From a virus, in the IMG/VR virus record IMGVR_UViG_3300046167_000427, positions 1 through 26,987 of that record: DNA of 26,987 bases; one strand, given 5' to 3'. Shown here piece after piece: positions 2,090 through 26,987 of the stretch. Position 1 is the first letter of the stretch, and every line of letters starts with the position of its first letter. Position numbers and translations under genes: made by a program. Under the pieces are notes generated by a model. That model searched no databases and was not told the DNA's origin. It saw nothing but the letters and a program-made list of their open reading frames with translations.

Positions 2090-3792
2090 TCATTAGCTGC
2101 CCCTAGTCCTAAGGCACCGTAGAGCATTCCTGCTTGACCTTGACGCACCCTGTTAGCATCAGCAGCCGTGGGAGTAGGGGTGTAGTTAACAGAGGCCTCC
2201 GCTAGTTGCTTGTTCATCCCTGAGACATTCTTATTGGTGCTCTGTACACCATAGTCTCTCATAGATTCCGTAAACTCTTGCCTAAGGCCACTATTGTCTG
2301 CATTGACTGAGGGCGAACTATCGAAGATGTTGTAAACATAAGGCGTGGGCACTGAAACGGTTCTACGGTGACCTCCGGGTATCATACCAAACAAGTCGTT
2401 CTCATCGTTAATCATCGTAATCACGTTACCTTGCTTATCTATGACTATCTGATCGTTGACTCCCCCTAAGGCCTTAGCTCTACTGTGGTGGCTATCACCA
2501 AAGTATATTCTACCTTTCTCGTCTGTGGTGAAATCCTTCTTAACCTCAGATAGTCTCTTCTTCATGTCTAAGAACTTCTTACGTTGCTGTGCAGAGACAC
2601 CACTGACTCCTGTGGCTGCTTTCTTCTCAGAAGCTATAGCAGCCCTGTAAGCCTTTATGACCTCCTTATTAGGACCTAAGGCTTTACCCTTGAAGTTTAC
2701 GTTAGGGTTAGCTGCCTTAATATCCGCAGCTTCTTTCTTAAAGGCGTCTGCTGCTATATCAGAGGCTTCTATGTCCCTCTGTAGACTGAAGTAGCTATCA
2801 ATCATGCTGTTAGCTTGTGTCCTAGTCTGCTTAGGTCCTACCCCTAGCTTCTTAGCTGCATCTTTCCCTAGGTGTCTGTTTACCTGTCTCTCACCCCAGT
2901 TAGCGGGCCTCTGATTCCCTGTCTTCTTGTCAGTCTTAGTTAGTGCCTTTTGCTCTATACGAGCCAGTGCTGCAAAGTCTTCAAACTCAGCGGCGTTCCT
3001 AAAAGGTGCATCACCGTAAACTGCCTTACGAGCCTCCATGGCCCTATAGAGGTTGTTAGTAACGTCTGCACCAAAGCCTTTCATAAACTCAGGGCTTAGG
3101 TCACTAAACATCTGGTTGTTTCTACCCATAACCAAAGGTGCTGCCTCTCCAGACTTAACCCCTTGAGCCTTCAGGATACGAGTTGTCAGAGTATCTAAAA
3201 GCTCATCGTCTACATCCACGCCGTATGCCTTAATGTTAGGGTTAACATCCAAGATGCGCCCTATAGTAGGTGCGTCTAAGTCTCCTACGACATTATACTG
3301 AGCATCAGCAAAGTCTGCTATAGGACCTCTCAGGGTGTCCCCACGAGCCTCCAAGAGCATCGCTTGTTGATCTGCTTGACCCTCTATCCAACTCGTAGAT
3401 TTATCCCTATCAATATCCGCTATCTTACCATCCAAGGCTTTACCTGCTTTAGTTCTATTAATGGCAGCCATAGACATATCAGGGTTGTCTTTACGTAACC
3501 TAGTAACTAAGGCATCCTTCTGCTGCTGTAACTTAGCCTTCTTAGAGGCCAACTTACCATCGGCGTCCAAGGCGGTCTCTGAGACCCTCTGTAGAGCCTT
3601 AGGGTTCGTTTGAAGCTCTGCCATAGCCTTAGGGGAGGTATAAGCGTACAAGGTGTCTAAGAGGGCCTGAGGGCCTGTCTGAAGGACTGAGGTTCCTTGG
3701 CCTAGGGAGCCACCTCCGTAGAACCCACCCCCTTGTTTATTAGGTGCCGCTAGGGATACGTCCTTAGAGAACTCCTTGACACCCTTTCTTAG
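2071..3792 (-). CDS. Large internal virion/ejection-type protein, downstream part after an apparent frame break
   Basis: The frame is open from just after a TAG at 3793-3795 down to TAA at 2071-2073. It contains no ATG or GTG before residues already deep in the protein; the first usable start is a TTG at 3649-3651 (526 aa) with no clear ribosome site. It therefore most likely continues the 129-residue frame ending at 3764. Removing one base from the A3G3 run (3782-3787) would fuse both into about 693 aa. The product is hydrophilic and Ala/Lys/Asp-rich, with long predicted helices and no transmembrane segment. It is the last gene of the late block, where podoviruses keep ejection proteins. Near residues 386-394 (counted from the TTG) is SHHSRAKALGG, which faintly recalls His-rich HNH or toxin nuclease motifs. 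Function is inferred from position and composition only. Confidence 0.7.
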   Translation of the reverse strand, partial: LRKGVKEFSKDVSLAAPNKQGGGFYGGGSLGQGTSVLQTGPQALLDTLYAYTSPKAMAELQTNPKALQRVSETALDADGKLASKKAKLQQQKDALVTRLRKDNPDMSMAAINRTKAGKALDGKIADIDRDKSTSWIEGQADQQAMLLEARGDTLRGPIADFADAQYNVVGDLDAPTIGRILDVNPNIKAYGVDVDDELLDTLTTRILKAQGVKSGEAAPLVMGRNNQMFSDLSPEFMKGFGADVTNNLYRAMEARKAVYGDAPFRNAAEFEDFAALARIEQKALTKTDKKTGNQRPANWGERQVNRHLGKDAAKKLGVGPKQTRTQANSMIDSYFSLQRDIEASDIAADAFKKEAADIKAANPNVNFKGKALGPNKEVIKAYRAAIASEKKAATGVSGVSAQQRKKFLDMKKRLSEVKKDFTTDEKGRIYFGDSHHSRAKALGGVNDQIVIDKQGNVITMINDENDLFGMIPGGHRRTVSVPTPYVYNIFDSSPSVNADNSGLRQEFTESMRDYGVQSTNKNVSGMNKQLAEASVNYTPTPTAADANRVRQGQAGMLYGALGLGAANEEERGP

Positions 3793-4153
3793 CTATAGAT
3801 CCCACCCCGGCAACCCCTGTTAGCTCTAAGGCATCTGACAGGCTGGCGGCAATCCTAGGGTTCTCTTCTGCGGCCTTAACTAAAGATTGAACAGTGTCCG
3901 TCTTAGCAGCAGCCTCCATGCCCCTAGTGGCTATGTCTTTTAACGCTTTGTCTACCTGAGGTGGCGATAGCCAGTCTGCTGCTTCCATAACTAAAGTTGC
4001 TATAGGGTCTGTGACAGTGCCTATGTAGGTTGCTGCCTGAGAACCCATGACCTCTGGTTTAGATATGTCACCCCTTAGGTAGGCTTCTTCACGTTCAGCT
4101 AGACGATCCCAACGATCATCAAAGTCTTGTCCCATCTTAGTAAATAGACTCAT
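3764..4153 (-). CDS. N-terminal part of the large internal virion/ejection-type protein (frame-broken)
   Basis: Encodes 129 residues beginning MSLFTKMGQDFDDRWDRLAE. Its ATG shares one base with the TAA of the upstream gene (TAATG), so translation is probably coupled. The protein looks well composed up to GVAGVGSIAKKG and then ends abruptly in CQGVL. In the frame one base over, the reading continues naturally as GVKEFSKDVSLAAPNKQGGG into the next open frame. I read this as the true N-terminus of the 2071-3792 protein. The break may be a real 1-nt insertion, a sequencing error in AAAGGG, or (less likely, needing +1 or -2) programmed frameshifting. If genuine and unrecoded, a 129-aa helical protein is made separately. 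Confidence 0.75.
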   Translation of the reverse strand: MSLFTKMGQDFDDRWDRLAEREEAYLRGDISKPEVMGSQAATYIGTVTDPIATLVMEAADWLSPPQVDKALKDIATRGMEAAAKTDTVQSLVKAAEENPRIAASLSDALELTGVAGVGSIAKKGCQGVL

Positions 4154-10423: not shown

Positions 10424-11071
10424 CTAAGGGGTATACCAGTCTGTTGCATAAGGGTGCTTCTGTGCGTCCAGAGCAATAGCGTCAGAAAGATACTGATTAG
10501 CAATAGCAAAGTACTCGGCTGTTGATGTGCCTCCTGTCTCGCCTCGCTCACGGGCTGATAAGGCTACCGCGAGGTGAATCACAGGCGTGTTAGGAATCAT
10601 TAGCTTATCTGTGTCAGCCACTAACTCATCGTTACGTAAGACACAATTGAACCTAACAACGTAAGCACCGTCAGGCTTAGGGTACACGTCTATCTGAGTA
10701 TCGCCGTTAGAATCAAGGCCCCTATAGGTGTACAACTGAGGTGACCCCTTAACTGGATCTTGGTTGTAATACTGATTATCAAACCAGTCAGTAGTACGAT
10801 AGTCCATGAAGAAGTCGGAGGTGTCATTGATGACATTAAGAGCCTTCACAGTATCCTTAGTATCTTCTAAGGGGTAAGTGAATACATCCTCAGAGGTTGT
10901 GAACACCACCGTAGTACGTAAGGCTGACCAGTCCCAAGAGGTTTCTACAATCTTCTTAGCATCATTAACAAAGTCACCTATCATTTTACTGTAGGTAGTA
11001 GAATCAACGCTAGGTACCTCTTCTTCTCGTATCCTTCTCAGGACGTTATTCACTACTTCTAAATATGTCAT
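10424..11071 (-). CDS. Putative head-to-tail adaptor (P22 gp4 / gp11-like)
   Basis: A 215-aa protein starting MTYLEVVNNVLRRIREEEVP. The N-terminal helix, then FVNDAKKIVETSWDWSALR, is a recurring pattern of podovirus adaptor proteins (helical bundle with 'A...ve...W.al'), followed by beta strands (QIDVYPKPDGAYVVRFNCVL) and a C-terminal helical hairpin (NTPVIHLAVALSARERGET; AEYFAIANQYLSDAIALDAQ). Adaptors bind the portal ring after packaging and receive the tail nozzle. Its position immediately before the nozzle-like gene supports this. The start overlaps the end of the collagen-like gene by ATGA. Family membership is moderately certain. Confidence 0.7.
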   Translation of the reverse strand: MTYLEVVNNVLRRIREEEVPSVDSTTYSKMIGDFVNDAKKIVETSWDWSALRTTVVFTTSEDVFTYPLEDTKDTVKALNVINDTSDFFMDYRTTDWFDNQYYNQDPVKGSPQLYTYRGLDSNGDTQIDVYPKPDGAYVVRFNCVLRNDELVADTDKLMIPNTPVIHLAVALSARERGETGGTSTAEYFAIANQYLSDAIALDAQKHPYATDWYTP

Positions 11072-13512
11072 GTAAGCATACCTTTGTTAATGATTTTGTT
11101 CAGCTCGGCTAGGAAGTCCACATCGGGGGATTGTATTATTTCTTGGATAGTAGGAGCTGAGTAATCAATACCTGTCATAAACCCTTTAAAATCTTTAGGG
11201 GCAGAGGCTCCTTGAAGTCCTCGCAATCCTTGTTCACCCTGATCACCCTGTTCACCTTGCTCACCTTGCTCACCTTGCTCACCTTGCTCACCCTGATCAC
11301 CGTCGGCACCATCGGCACCATCGGTACCATCGAGACCATCGGTACCATCGAGACCATCGGCACCATCGAGACCGTCGAGACCGTCGGCACCATCGAGACC
11401 ATCGGTACCATCGAGACCATCGGTACCATCGAGACCATCGGTACCATCTAAGCCATCGGTACCATCTAAGCCATCGGTACCATCTAAGCCATCGGTACCA
11501 TCTAAGCCATCGGTACCATCTAAGCCGTCGATACCATCTAAGCCGTCGGTACCATCTAAGCCATCGGTACCATCTAAGCCGTCGATACCATCTAAGCCAT
11601 CGGTACCATCTAAGCCATCGGTACCATCTAAGCCGTCGATACCATCTAAGCCGTCGGTACCATCGGTACCGTCGGCACCTGTAGCACCTGTAGCACCTGT
11701 AGCACCTGTAGCACCTGTAGCACCTGTAGCACCTGTAGCACCGTCGGCACCGTCGGCACCGTCGAGACCGTCGAGACCGTCGAGACCGTCGGTACCATCA
11801 ATGCCTGTTATAATGTCTTCTACAATATCATCCGTGCCGTCGTCTGAGGTTGTGTCTGTGAGGATGTCAATATCATCGTCAACGTCACCTTCGTATACTG
11901 TGGCGTTATTACCTCCTAAGTATTCGTCACCTACAGTGCTGCCTACCTCTAAATCACCAACGTCAGGTATGTACCATTGATCGTTTGTTCCAGATTGCGT
12001 GTCCGTAAAAACCCCGTTACCTTCGTAAACATATCTGTCGTCATTACCAGAGGTATCTACAGAGTCATCAACTGAGCTGTCTACAGAGTCATCTACAGAG
12101 TTATCTACAGAGTTATCAACTGAGTTATCAACTGAGTTATCAACTGAGTTATCAACTGAGTTATCAACTGAGTTATCAACTGAGTTATCAACTGAGTTAT
12201 CAACTGAGCTGTCTACGGAGTCATCTACGGAGTCAGCAGCAGCAGCGGCGGCTTCTTCTGTTTCTTCTGTAACTGTGTAAGCTGGAATCTGTATTTGTAA
12301 ATCGCCAAGTACATCAGTAACGTCTACGTCTTGCCATGCAATGTCACTGTAATCAGTATCGAACTCTCCGTCAGCTACGTCGTTTATAGAATCTATTACA
12401 GACTTAACAATGTCACTTGCGCTAACAGATGTTATCTCAGTAGCATCACCAAACAGGCCGCCTGCCGCGCCTTCAAGAACGTCTTGGATTACAGTGTCTA
12501 AATCTACATCACCAGTAGTGGCTGCTTGGCTTGTAAGACTAAGAGTTGCACTTGCTAGAGCACTTGCCGAAGCTGCTGAAAGTCCTGTAGTAGCTACTAA
12601 TTTAGCAGCAAGCGCAGGAGCAGCGGCCATTAACGCAGCCGCACCAGCCGCTAAAACGTAATCACCAAAGTCTGTCCTGTTCATCTTGTAGGTACGAGCA
12701 AAACCCGTACCTGTCCAACGGAATCTATCGCCCTTCTCGTTAGTAAACTCTTGATTAGGGATTCCGTACTTGTTCATCAACGCTTGGTTTTCTGCGCTGT
12801 TCATCCAAGAAGCATAAGCGCCCTGTCTAGCGTTAGCGTCAGACTGCTGCGTATCATCTACTGGCTGTTGTTGTCCCGGAGAACCAAACAAGTCGTCTTC
12901 TTCTTGCTGCTGTTGTGCCGCTGTAGTTTGGTTTATACCTTCCTGAGAGAACCAGTCTTGAGCCTCGATCATGTCAGAGGACTCTTCAATGTAATCCATG
13001 TACCTGTTAAAAGATCCAAAGACATTCTGAAGATTAGAACTGCTGTTGTACGCCTCTTGCAAGTCTGATTCTGTTACCTGAGTAGGTGACCAAGCAAGGG
13101 CTTGTGTATCTTCACCTGTAGCGCCAAAGAGACTCACGGCGTTATCGCCAGTCTCTTGATGAAGGATCATTGTGTACGTGCCTTCGTCTACCTCATTAGA
13201 AGATTGTTGATCTGAAAGCCAACCTTCGTACTGGGTGTTTGTCAACATACCTTCTTTAGTATCAGGCGACCCTGAAGCCTGCCACTTATTATACCAATAC
13301 TCATCTTGTTCGTTAAAGTTTCCGCTTTCTACTCTATTAATAATTGCGTTTTTATCTTGAAGCCAGCGATATTCTGTGTCTGTGAGCATTCCATCTTTGG
13401 TTTCTGGCTCTCCAGAAGCTACCCACTTATCGTACCAAGCTAAAGTAGCATCGTTAGCTGTGCCTTGAGCTACCTGATTAAGCATAAAGTTTTTGTTATC
13501 TACCCACGCCAT
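11068..13512 (-). CDS. Collagen-like repeat virion protein, 814 aa
   Basis: A mosaic protein. (1) Residues 5-99 are two copies of a ~47-aa unit with WYDKW.ASGEP.TKDGMLT and WYNKW.ASGSP.TKEGMLT cores. (2) A polar Gln/Ser-rich segment runs to about 275. (3) Residues 279-327 are a very Ala-rich, hydrophobic helix region (VLAAGAAALMAAAPALAAKL), possibly membrane-active. (4) At about 426-487 is an acidic VDNS/VDDS tandem array. (5) At about 568-767 are near-perfect Gly-X-Y collagen-like repeats (GLDGTD, GAT, GEQ units). (6) A short C-terminal domain ends DFLAELNKIINKGMLT. Collagen-like parts of phage proteins form trimeric stalks, so a fibre or tail appendage is plausible. The hydrophobic part and the place next to the adaptor would also fit a tail-tip or ejected protein. 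There is no strong Shine-Dalgarno. Coding is certain; role is uncertain. Confidence 0.85.
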   Translation of the reverse strand: MAWVDNKNFMLNQVAQGTANDATLAWYDKWVASGEPETKDGMLTDTEYRWLQDKNAIINRVESGNFNEQDEYWYNKWQASGSPDTKEGMLTNTQYEGWLSDQQSSNEVDEGTYTMILHQETGDNAVSLFGATGEDTQALAWSPTQVTESDLQEAYNSSSNLQNVFGSFNRYMDYIEESSDMIEAQDWFSQEGINQTTAAQQQQEEDDLFGSPGQQQPVDDTQQSDANARQGAYASWMNSAENQALMNKYGIPNQEFTNEKGDRFRWTGTGFARTYKMNRTDFGDYVLAAGAAALMAAAPALAAKLVATTGLSAASASALASATLSLTSQAATTGDVDLDTVIQDVLEGAAGGLFGDATEITSVSASDIVKSVIDSINDVADGEFDTDYSDIAWQDVDVTDVLGDLQIQIPAYTVTEETEEAAAAAADSVDDSVDSSVDNSVDNSVDNSVDNSVDNSVDNSVDNSVDNSVDNSVDDSVDSSVDDSVDTSGNDDRYVYEGNGVFTDTQSGTNDQWYIPDVGDLEVGSTVGDEYLGGNNATVYEGDVDDDIDILTDTTSDDGTDDIVEDIITGIDGTDGLDGLDGLDGADGADGATGATGATGATGATGATGATGADGTDGTDGLDGIDGLDGTDGLDGTDGLDGIDGLDGTDGLDGTDGLDGIDGLDGTDGLDGTDGLDGTDGLDGTDGLDGTDGLDGTDGLDGTDGLDGADGLDGLDGADGLDGTDGLDGTDGADGADGDQGEQGEQGEQGEQGEQGDQGEQGLRGLQGASAPKDFKGFMTGIDYSAPTIQEIIQSPDVDFLAELNKIINKGMLT
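11209..11807 (-). repeat. Collagen-type tandem DNA repeat (18-bp GLDGTD units plus 9-bp GAT/GEQ units)
   Basis: The DNA coding for Gly-X-Y repeats is itself tandemly repeated. There are 18-bp units of the type CCATCGGTACCATCTAAG (Gly-Leu-Asp-Gly-Thr-Asp on the - strand), a run of 9-bp GCACCTGTA units (Gly-Ala-Thr) around 11677-11740, and a 9-bp TCACCTTGC/TCACCCTGA run (Gly-Glu-Gln) around 11237-11302. The 18-bp units fall in two blocks that differ in the leucine codon: CTC (plus GAG) up to about 11450 and TTA (plus TAA) from there to about 11655. This points to local expansion and homogenisation. Confidence 0.9.
12053..12235 (-). repeat. 12-bp tandem repeat coding for VDNS/VDDS
   Basis: At 12113-12208 the 12-mer TTATCAACTGAG repeats perfectly about eight times, flanked by degenerate copies (TCATCTACAGAG, CTGTCTACGGAG). 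On the - strand it codes Val-Asp-Asn-Ser, an acidic, probably extended linker in the 814-aa protein. It is an in-frame minisatellite and keeps the frame with any copy-number change. Confidence 0.9.
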
Positions 13513-24244: not shown

Positions 24245-25501
24245 TTAGTATCCCGCTACAATATCTAAGATTTCAAGCTCATCTTCTATGAACTCATGGA
24301 TCCCATAAGGGATGGTCGCTAATTGATCTATGTAAGCCAAAGAGTCCACTAAGTCATCATGTGTTAGTGGATCAGGGAACTGGAAGAGTTGATCTAGGAA
24401 TCTAGCGTTCCACTCCCCCTTGTTCAAGCTTATTACACCGTTCTCAAAGCGCCCTTGCAACGCCCACATAATACGGTCTGTTTTCTTCTTATTACCGTGG
24501 GTTAACTCTTCTACCCTAAAGTACTTCCCGTGCTTCCTCTGAAGATCCATCAAAGGTGACATTACCGCTTGCTTTGCTATACCCCTCTCGATACCTACCG
24601 AGATAGGTTGGTAATCCCGGACTGCTTGGAATATCTTCATCGCTGTTTCATCTAAGGTCCAACGTCCGTAGATTACATTCTCTATGAGCCAGTCTCCGTT
24701 GTCACCAACCTTGACTACAGAGATTGCTGTCTCATCTAACTTAGAACTCTTCGTCCTCTTCTTACCTACTTCCTCAAAGCCTGCGAGGTCAATGGCTATG
24801 TAGTAGTCCCCTGCTTCCGGGGCCTCACCGTAGTGTACCCAGTCCTCCTTAAACATCTCTGAGCCAACAGCCTCAAAGGACGCCATGAACTCCTGACGAA
24901 AGGCGTAAGAAGACATTGACTTCTTGGCGACATTAATTTCATCAGGGTCGAGTAGTGGGTTATCGTAGCTTGTGAAGTGCCAACCTGAGTATGTCTCATC
25001 GTCACCTATCTCCGCATACTTATAGAGTTCATAGAAGTGATTACGACCCATAGGTGTCCCTATGAACATCGCGTGTCCCTTCTGGTCTGCCAACGCTGGA
25101 CGTAAGACCTGCTCCCATACGTCAGGCTTCATATCTGCGTACTCATCCATCACCAGAAACTTCAAGGAGACACCACGCATAGTCTCTGGCCTATCTGCTC
25201 CCTTAAGGGTAATCGTGGCTCCATTGACTAACTTAAGCTGTAAGTTGTTAATGTGGGAACCTGTGATGACATCGTGACCTAACTCTAGGAGCGTTTGCCA
25301 CATGATGTCCCTAGCTTGTCCCTGCGTAGGGGCTACATAGAATACATGACCCCTGTCTGACTGGAGGGCATTAATGATGAGCATCCATGCAGCTAACCTA
25401 GACTTCCCTGTTCTTCGGCCAGCAGCGACAACCTTAAAGCGCGTAGGATCCTCAAATACCTTGGTTTGCCACGGGAGTAACTCTACGTTAAGATCAGTCA
25501 C
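24245..25501 (-). CDS. terL: Terminase large subunit (DNA-packaging ATPase/nuclease)
   Basis: A 418-aa motor that cuts concatemeric DNA and pumps it through the portal. Visible motifs: Walker A AGRRTGKS (27-34); Walker B FLVMDE (115-120, with D119 and catalytic E120); a coupling motif FIGTP (146-150). In the RNase H-like nuclease domain there are D238 (AIDLAG), E305 (GIERG) and D382/D383 (HDDLVD). It starts with GTG (25499-25501), 3 bp after the terS stop. Its length is at the short end for a two-domain TerL (about 420-600 aa) but both catalytic sites are complete. The similarity to marine podovirus TerL proteins is clear by eye. The packaging strategy (cos or pac) is not deducible here. Confidence 0.95.
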   Translation of the reverse strand: MTDLNVELLPWQTKVFEDPTRFKVVAAGRRTGKSRLAAWMLIINALQSDRGHVFYVAPTQGQARDIMWQTLLELGHDVITGSHINNLQLKLVNGATITLKGADRPETMRGVSLKFLVMDEYADMKPDVWEQVLRPALADQKGHAMFIGTPMGRNHFYELYKYAEIGDDETYSGWHFTSYDNPLLDPDEINVAKKSMSSYAFRQEFMASFEAVGSEMFKEDWVHYGEAPEAGDYYIAIDLAGFEEVGKKRTKSSKLDETAISVVKVGDNGDWLIENVIYGRWTLDETAMKIFQAVRDYQPISVGIERGIAKQAVMSPLMDLQRKHGKYFRVEELTHGNKKKTDRIMWALQGRFENGVISLNKGEWNARFLDQLFQFPDPLTHDDLVDSLAYIDQLATIPYGIHEFIEDELEILDIVAGY

Positions 25502-25504
25502 TAC

Positions 25505-25921
25505 TTAAGACTCCCCCTCGGTTGTCCATTGGCCTTCCAAGGCTTCTGAGGAGCCTGAAGAGACCTCTGTAGACCCTACTCCTGTGATGTTTATCTGTAT
25601 GGCACTCCTACCTGCATCTTTGATTACATCCTTCTCAAAGGCCGCTGTGGGGGCTATACGATCCATTATCAGCTTCCACGCAGCACCTTGGTTCTTATGG
25701 TCATCATCTAAGGCTGCATTGAAGATAGCCTCTAATACCTTACCTGACTTAGGACTAGCCAACATACGAGCTTTGTATTCATTGATTACCGAGGCATCAC
25801 CCTTAGGTCTACCTACCTTACCTCTATTACCTACCTTCTTAAGCTCCGTGGCTGCTTTCGTTGGCCTTCCTCGTTTCTTCGGCGTACTTGGCGAGTCTTC
25901 TGAGGGTGTCTTCGTTGTCAT
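25505..25921 (-). CDS. terS: Terminase small subunit
   Basis: A 138-aa protein of 'GRP'-type small terminases: a basic, AT-hook-like N-terminus with two GRP motifs (KKRGRPTKAA, KVGRPKGD), then VINEYKARMLASPKSGKVLE and DHKNQGAAWKLIMDRIAPTA, the conserved helical core of marine-phage TerS. The C-terminus is Gly/Ser/Glu-rich. It recognises the packaging start site and loads TerL. The ATG (25919-25921) has TTAGGA as its ribosome site. The first ~27 codons overlap, in another frame, the C-terminal end of an endonuclease VII-like reading frame. Upstream lies a long leader back to the promoter at 26342-26370. Confidence 0.92.
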   Translation of the reverse strand: MTTKTPSEDSPSTPKKRGRPTKAATELKKVGNRGKVGRPKGDASVINEYKARMLASPKSGKVLEAIFNAALDDDHKNQGAAWKLIMDRIAPTAAFEKDVIKDAGRSAIQINITGVGSTEVSSGSSEALEGQWTTEGES

Positions 25922-26012
25922 TACAGTTTCCTAAGGCTAAGTTACAGGGCTTACAGAGTAGTCCTCTGGGCTTGTCGAGCTGATCTAGGCAGCGTACTGG
26001 TTGCTTGAGTCT
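25839..26012 (-). pseudogene. Start-less C-terminal fragment of an endonuclease VII-like (His-Me/HNH) gene
   Basis: From the stop TGA at 26013-26015 to TAA at 25839-25841 an open frame of 57 codons on the - strand contains no ATG, GTG, TTG or CTG. It reads CLDQLDKPRGLLCKPCNLAL, then GNCNDNEDTLRRLAKYAEE. The RGLLCKPCNLALG...DN...L...A.Y signature is the C-terminal zinc-binding half of recombination endonuclease VII-type proteins (known from T4 gp49 and many phages), which resolve branched DNA before packaging. The catalytic 'DH.H..G' stretch normally just upstream is replaced by CLDQLDK, and nothing of the N-terminal part was found in any frame up to 26340. It overlaps the terS start. I interpret it as a truncated gene; the C-terminal codons inside terS may be kept for terS alone. 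Confidence 0.7.
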
Positions 26013-26013
26013 T

Positions 26014-26075
26014 CATAATATGTCTTATATATTGATCTATAAGATAGTTATTTGTTCATAATATAAGACATTATG
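26014..26075. repeat. AT-rich inverted repeat at the truncation point of the endonuclease VII fragment
   Basis: Left arm CATAATATGTCTTATAT (26014-26030) pairs with right arm ATATAAGACATTATG (26061-26075) with one extra base, around a 30-nt centre. Inside there is a second, smaller palindrome (TCTTATA ... TATAAGA at 26023-26044). The region is far richer in A+T than its surroundings. It contains the stop codon that ends the endonuclease fragment upstream. It could be a regulatory RNA or DNA structure in the terS leader, or a scar of a recombination event. Confidence 0.65.
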
Positions 26076-26341
26076 GTCTAAAAGCACTATAACGTCCAGA
26101 GCCGCCACTCGTTCCCCTCGTTAACTTATGTTGTCATTTGAGTCCCCTATATCCCTAAGACCCCTTGGATTCCCTAGTTCCTAAAGGGGTTACTCTCTAG
26201 AGGGGATCTAAATGAACCTATTTAGTTACCTCCTAAGGGGGCCTTTGGTGTATACCTTAAATTATTCATTAAAGTATTCAACTAAGGGGTAACTTAGGTG
26301 GCGCGAAGGCCCTCTAAAGTGTTGCTTAGAATATACTATAT

Positions 26342-26385
26342 ATTATACCATATTTCAGAGTAAATGTCAAGGTATTTCTTTGGTA
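26342..26385 (-). promoter_or_regulatory. Perfect sigma-70-type promoter for the packaging/portal transcript
   Basis: On the - strand TTGACA (26365-26370) and TATAAT (26342-26347) are 17 bp apart. Upstream TACCAAAGAAA (26375-26385) and spacer TTTACTCTGAAATATGG closely match the capsid promoter at 19207-19250. Transcription would start near 26335, giving terS an unusually long leader of about 410 nt. Confidence 0.88.
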
Positions 26386-26753
26386 ATAATCACATACCTA
26401 TGGATTCTTAGGCCACTTTAGGGTTCTTAGGTGCCTTAGGTAGTTCCCTTTTAGAACTTAAGGTGCCTCCTTAGGGTTCCTTTTAGAACTTTTGGTTACT
26501 TAAGGTGCACTTTTGGTAAACTCTAGGCACACCAAGGGGTTACATTAGGTAACACTACACCTAGTTTTCTTAAGTTTTACCTTATTTTGACCTATTTTGC
26601 ACCAAGGTTTCCTAAAGTTCCCTATTTTGTGCCTAGGTAGGTACAACTAAAGACAACCAAAGGCAACCCCGGCCCCCCCGTCCCCAAATAGCCTAGGCTT
26701 CTCGGGTCTCCCTAGGATACCATAGGCAGACCCGAGGTGTCAAGCGTTAACAT
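26386..26753. other. Non-coding intergenic stretch with short repeats, a hairpin and a C-run
   Basis: I see no coding region or RNA gene here. Contents: two copies of TTTTAGAACTT with similar flanks about 33 bp apart (near 26448 and 26481); many CTTAGG/CCTTAGG words; a C-run CCCCGGCCCCCCCGTCCCC (26667-26685), whose - strand could form a G-quadruplex; and a hairpin with 9-bp arms CTCGGGTCT (26701-26709) and AGACCCGAG (26728-26736), extended inside by CCTA/TAGG. A weak -strand promoter-like pair (TTGACA and TATCCT, 18 bp apart) overlaps this hairpin. This is probably part of the control region between divergent transcripts. Confidence 0.5.
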
Positions 26754-26987
26754 TGGTACTATTCACGTTGACAAGGCAGCCCTACTTGTGTTAAGCCAAT
26801 GGATCCAAGGGGTAACACAAGGGGCAACCTAAGTCAACCAAAGGTTATGGTACTATTCACGTTGACATGGGTTGCTATTCGTGTTAGCAAATGTAACCTT
26901 GGGGTTACACGAGGGGCAACCAAGGTGCAACTAAAAGTTGTGGTAATATTTACGTTGACAAAAGGTGACAAGTGAGGGCCAGAGTAG
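26754..26987. repeat. Tandem ~93-bp repeat array with conserved 20-nt core
   Basis: The core TGGTACTATTCACGTTGACA occurs at 26754-26773 and 26848-26867 exactly, and as TGGTAATATTTACGTTGACA at 26941-26960, spaced 94 and 93 bp. The sequence between cores is also repeated in part (GGGGTTACACGAGGGGCAAC versus GGGGTAACACAAGGGGCAAC). A degenerate half-copy (CTATTCGTGTTAGCA; CTACTTGTGTTAAGC) follows the first two cores 22-23 bp on, about two helical turns. The array runs to the window edge. Candidates are early promoters for a phage or host RNA polymerase, a repressor or initiator binding array, or a replication origin. Confidence 0.8.

Follow-up and report, generated by a model that had tools for sequence, protein, structure and literature searches.

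A probable bacterial hipBA operator stands in place of the 5′ part of an endonuclease VII gene in a viral genome and recurs in other phages

We analyzed a complete viral record of 26,987 nt in the fragment class (hereafter, the window), whose minus strand carries, in order, a long non-coding region (26987-26104), an open frame without a start codon (26012-25839), terS (25921-25505) and terL (25501-24245). The features of this region are as follows, where L005 is the nearest viral relative with this arrangement and L099 is a bacterial hipBA locus.

26342-26370, minus strand: native consensus promoter TTGACA-N17-TATAAT, agreeing at 12/12 consensus positions, upstream of the foreign patch
25968-26103, minus strand: foreign patch, 136 nt with both microhomologies, holding a hipBA promoter/operator and hipB codons 1-16
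26098-26103, minus strand: left junction microhomology GGCTCT, 6 nt, common to L005 3478-3483 and the L099 hipBA upstream region
26021-26070, minus strand: operator-like inverted repeat TGTCTTAT-N34-ATAAGACA, 50 nt, complete
25951-26016, minus strand: truncated hipB frame MKTQATSTLPRSARQAQRTTL and stop, 21 codons, entering the endonuclease sequence out of frame
25968-25976, minus strand: right junction microhomology GACAAGCCC, 9 nt, read as endonuclease in L005 (3811-3819) and as hipB CGGCAAGCCC in L099
25839-25976, minus strand: authentic remnant of the endonuclease VII gene (its 3′ part), matching PF02945 and PHROG and collinear with L005 3811-3948
25505-25921, minus strand: terS, intact, 138 aa, overlapping the endonuclease VII remnant out of frame
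24245-25501, minus strand: terL, PF03237, E = 9e-18

The frame at 25839-26012 (minus strand) is open for 57 codons and contains no ATG, GTG or TTG start. A profile search of its 57-residue translation, as proposed in a preliminary description of this DNA, gave a match to Pfam PF02945 (Endonuclease_7) above the gathering cut-off of 23.6 (31.9 bits, E = 1.3e-7), aligning frame residues 16-45 with positions 52-81 of the 82-position profile, and the frame also matched PHROG endonuclease VII families (E = 2.6e-9 and 8.7e-9). The start-less endonuclease VII remnant overlapping terS is therefore real. It contains the C-terminal zinc-binding part of the enzyme, while the start codon and the N-terminal, catalytic part are absent, profile positions 1-51 being unmatched and the 5′ part of the gene replaced. 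It had been described as a C-terminal half without the catalytic His; the His segment is indeed absent, but the first 12 residues of the frame (RLKQPVRCLDQL) are hipB DNA in an out-of-frame reading, and genuine endonuclease VII sequence begins only at around residue 13 (DKPRGLLCKPCN...). The catalytic His is thus missing because foreign sequence lies in its place, and not through mutation of the endonuclease. Upstream, the frame is closed by a TGA at 26015-26013, within a foreign ATGA.

Intact endonuclease VII genes overlapping terS were present in two close relatives. In L005, whose terL is 98% identical to that of the window, the gene encodes 143 aa (3517-3948) and overlaps terS as in the window, and in L082 it encodes 139 aa (2722-3141); their PF02945 scores were 55.9 and 58.9 bits, respectively. 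A gene of this family is the source of the remnant, and the window copy differs from it by having lost its start and N-terminal 98 codons. No endonuclease VII frame was found before terS in L003 and L004, whose terL genes are very close, and no PF02945 match was found in the 34-35 kb relatives L087, L090 and L091. The gene resembles a dispensable passenger, and since the 34-35 kb relatives have no PF02945 gene, a second resolvase, suggested earlier as a replacement, is not needed as an explanation. A self-splicing intron was rejected because no Rfam match was obtained up to an E-value of 1 and the 5′ exon is absent, and recoding was rejected because the N-terminal half is absent rather than displaced. 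The preliminary description was therefore right in suspecting a recent truncation, which the intact copies support, but its alternative of splicing or recoding fails, as the missing 5′ part does not lie upstream and has been replaced by foreign DNA, and the cause, a probable captured hipBA operator, had been overlooked. Taken alone, the remnant is an everyday case of gene loss; what caused it is unusual.

Between 26987 and 26098, the window aligns collinearly with L005 2637-3483 at 88% identity, and collinearity resumes from 25976 in the 3′ part of the endonuclease gene. Between the collinear parts, 327 nt of phage DNA are gone in comparison with L005, among them the first 98 codons, with the start, of the endonuclease VII gene, and 121 nt of other DNA stand in their place, bounded by the two microhomologies; the junctions of the window itself rest on a single contig. 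The inverted repeat possibly consists of two 18-bp sites, 26070-26053 and 26038-26021. The first 16 residues of the truncated hipB frame are identical to those of L099 HipB (MKTQATSTLPRSARQA in both).

The patch is of bacterial origin. Over its full length, it is ∼93% identical to the upstream region and hipB codons 1-16 of L099, a hipBA operon on a chromosome of marine Gammaproteobacteria. The first lead was a HipB-like regulator gene on a Halioglobus plasmid, whose upstream region resembled the patch, and when genomes were scanned for the inverted repeat with an ATG after it, the same layout appeared in metagenome-assembled genomes labelled Gammaproteobacteria, Woeseiaceae and Proteobacteria, L099 being the best. 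The inverted repeat precedes hipB in eight bacterial loci. In L099 and L100, the gene downstream of the regulator gene overlaps it and encodes a product with HipA_C and Couple_hipA matches, the same regulator-hipA order was read from the sequence of L106, and a chain bearing the name HipB is the sole solved sequence relative of the regulator. The L099 match, together with the downstream HipA_C/Couple_hipA gene, identifies the patch as the promoter/operator of a hipBA operon together with the beginning of hipB. The repeat was absent upstream of bacterial hipB genes at 54-56% identity, which assigns the operator to this particular hipBA subgroup, and the operator sequence presumably differs from that of the E. 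coli hipBA operator. Neither the phage-type inner sequence nor an exact donor was found in bacterial genome contigs or in 369 genomes of the class of L099, and annotated phage records gave only short weak matches to the patch. The patch thus corresponds to the promoter/operator and hipB start of a type II hipBA operon as known from E. coli HipBA (PMC8262856), from which it differs as a control site without its module: hipB is cut after ∼16 codons, and hipA is absent, including from the list of open reading frames in the window. Separately, on the Halioglobus pacificus plasmid pRR3-57 (L098 5057-5383), the hipB-like gene carries the operator, has no hipA directly downstream and adjoins an integrase-like gene, being an orphan regulator.

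The same operator was found in ∼16 other phage contigs spanning about ten other metagenomes, at five insertion sites besides that of the window. Scans for the exact core recovered L005, L083/L088, L086/L094, L087, L089-L093 and L095-L097, and diverged copies were found in L125, L133/L138 (one contig), L136 and L142. The insertion sites are as follows.

Site A: within a small early gene; the empty form is present in L125, L138 and L089
Site B: the window
Site C: L092, intergenic
Site D: L089, intergenic
Site E/F: L125, L136 and L133/L138, upstream of terS
Site G: L142, at an early gene's 3′ end; L125 and L133 have the empty form

The insertion at site A is bounded by the shared words GGCTCTG and GTACGCTGCC, and the uninterrupted form reads TGGGCTGAGGCTCTGTCGTACGCTGCC. 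As L089, L125 and L138 have the small early gene intact and the operator at another place, related phages carry the operator at differing places. In donor coordinates, the copies extend over 1-136 (window), 1-115 (A), 26-103 (C), 31-85 (D), 24-88 (E) and 35-83 (G), where the ends for the window, A, C and D are exact matches and those of the diverged copies are score-trimmed and approximate. The part retained in all copies is donor 35-83, nearly exactly the inverted repeat at 34-83. As no other phage copy found extends as far into hipB as that of the window, the window copy was not derived from any of them. For sites C to G, phage-to-phage transfer could have taken the place of separate captures. 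Among eight records with site A, the 109-nt element showed no difference in 28 pairwise comparisons (109/109), in flanks that differ at up to 16 positions in the 75 nt on the left and up to 21 positions on the right where collinear (up to 20-28%), which indicates a recent spread of this element. The diverged site E/F copies keep all 16 half-site bases with changes only inside, weak evidence of conservation given that the scan finding them required these bases, and in the L142 copy the half-sites are altered. Among the 34 terL relatives searched, many of whose records are fragments, 33 lacked any site at up to two mismatches and the one match, on the contig of L084, did not have the inner sequence in common. 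We judge it very probable from these sequence comparisons that phages captured a host hipBA operator.

Several other candidates were rejected. Half-site matches in L110-L124, L126-L132, L134, L135 and L137 were attributed to chance, having apparently only the two 8-mers in common among the matches listed, as were L139-L141, which match the inner pattern only. A transposable element or MITE does not account for the patch, because the ends vary between sites and the junctions are microhomologies with no target duplication at A or B. A phage-internal segment in inverted orientation, considered because the patch resembles L005 1-90 reversed, was dismissed since the patch reaches hipB codons beyond the phage copies, and likeness to a dif site failed on spacing.

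Some operator-bearing loci had further peculiarities. A viral contig of 150,920 nt with diverged flanks likewise carries the small early gene together with the operator (L095 9475-9585), reflecting either movement of this gene between very different phages or a composite contig. On the 42,143-nt contig IMGVR_UViG_3300046167_000523, an operator region of ∼1 kb is duplicated with 95% identity (L133 1182-1232 and L138 11028-11078). In two site-A copies (L093 1851 and L097 4314), the DNA after the element is shortened and the small gene further eroded, apparently by an event between two AACCAGTAC repeats. Minisatellite-like, non-coding repeats were observed near the operator upstream of terS in L125 (1500-1610), L136 (3374-3592) and L133 (1300-1450).

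For the window, microhomology-mediated illegitimate recombination probably put the 121 nt of hipBA promoter/operator and hipB start in place of the 327 nt of phage DNA, an event in which the dispensable endonuclease VII was lost and terS spared. Selection could then have favored the operator, phages of hosts with this hipBA operon gaining it repeatedly. With HipA, HipB forms the inactive complex HipB2HipA2, which occupies operators in the hipBA promoter; when HipB is lost, the released HipA phosphorylates a tRNA synthetase (PMC8262856). We infer that HipB would bind the phage-borne operator and be titrated by it to the benefit of the phage: as the phage genome multiplies, the extra operators would bind HipB and HipB-HipA complexes, whereby either HipA kinase would be held inactive in DNA-bound complexes or the operon would be derepressed to supply fresh HipB, and in both cases the infected cell would not be arrested by HipA. 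That the captured operators serve these marine phages in this way as a DNA-decoy counter-defence, titrating HipB/HipBA to restrain the HipA kinase and thereby marking hipBA as an anti-phage system, seems to us plausible at slightly below an even chance. The decoy function is a testable proposal with roughly even odds, and the whole account, a remnant made by microhomology together with repeated capture of the operator as a HipB/HipBA decoy, appears to us evenly poised between right and wrong.

The patchy presence of the operator is consistent with a tool needed against some hosts only, and with chance capture too. Under the latter, the hipBA promoter region would have been gained by chance and spread by recombination, perhaps helped by a recombination-prone inverted repeat, the endonuclease would simply have decayed and the operator would be inactive. 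We regard such a neutral course as rather unlikely, although the junctions are plain microhomologies, the endonuclease gene is optional, the half-sites are altered in L142 and the site-A element is young and identical, as recent spread alone could yield. It is harder to reconcile with the same 50-nt site at six sites with differing end-points, whose common part is the inverted repeat, and with the half-site bases kept at site E/F (bases required by the scan); in addition, no other captured bacterial sequence came up incidentally.

The captured DNA might instead act as a host promoter, possibly HipB-controlled, that drives nearby genes, namely terS in the window and early genes elsewhere. The window patch is directed to terS, as are the copies in L125, L133 and L136, and has a weak sigma-70-like match at 26098-26070; however, the copies in L092 and L142 are oriented against the neighboring genes, the window retains the perfect consensus promoter at 26370-26342, which is also conserved in L005, and the core common to all copies omits most of the upstream promoter-like match, so that a promoter role is improbable. 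Highly improbable is that the arrangement in the window alone is an assembly or amplification chimera. Its exact junctions were in no other viral contig scanned, where its own record and near copies were possibly outside the scans, but the usual assembler words are far longer than these overlaps (6 and 9 nt), and contigs of about ten other metagenomes also show operator capture.

A close counterpart, at the RNA level, is phage PhiTE with its pseudo-ToxI, along with PhiTE-F, which escaped ToxIN after recombining with the toxI locus of its host (PMC3475682). There, as with the patch, a phage gained part of a host toxin-antitoxin locus via recombination; however, pseudo-ToxI is an RNA antitoxin that neutralizes the toxin, with evasion shown by test, whereas the patch is a DNA operator with no intact antitoxin and a putative role. 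An antitoxin mimic of Vibrio phages acting against DarTG (PMC11481870) is likewise a counter to a toxin-antitoxin defence, which in our case is putative, and is a protein rather than a DNA site. Known phage answers to toxin-antitoxin systems are antitoxin-like RNAs or proteins, and we found no description of phage-borne hipBA operators or of operator decoys against toxin-antitoxin systems in the open-licence literature. A stolen operator would be a DNA counter-measure of ∼50 bp, invisible to gene-based annotation, and would indicate hipBA as a natural phage barrier. The approach opens a way to seek operators of other toxin-antitoxin systems in phage genomes.

Among the neighboring genes, terS takes its name from the preliminary description and from its position; Pfam and PHROG searches gave no family match, and its counterparts in relatives (61-87% identity) are located before terL. 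The gap between terS and terL, only 3 nt in the window (25501-25505), is a cargo hot spot among relatives, holding a peptidase-like gene, a glutaredoxin-like gene or a 452-aa protein, in the following regions.

L003 1304-2292: terS-terL cargo region
L004 1413-2116: terS-terL cargo region
L082 3557-5697: terS-terL cargo region

Upstream of terS, non-coding DNA of the window at 26741-26960 contains three 33-nt direct repeats of the GGTACTATTCACGTTGACA type with a spacing of 93-94 nt, possibly promoters or iterons. Elsewhere in the window, a frame of 814 aa at 11068-13512 contains long collagen-like DGTDGLDGTDGLDG repeats.
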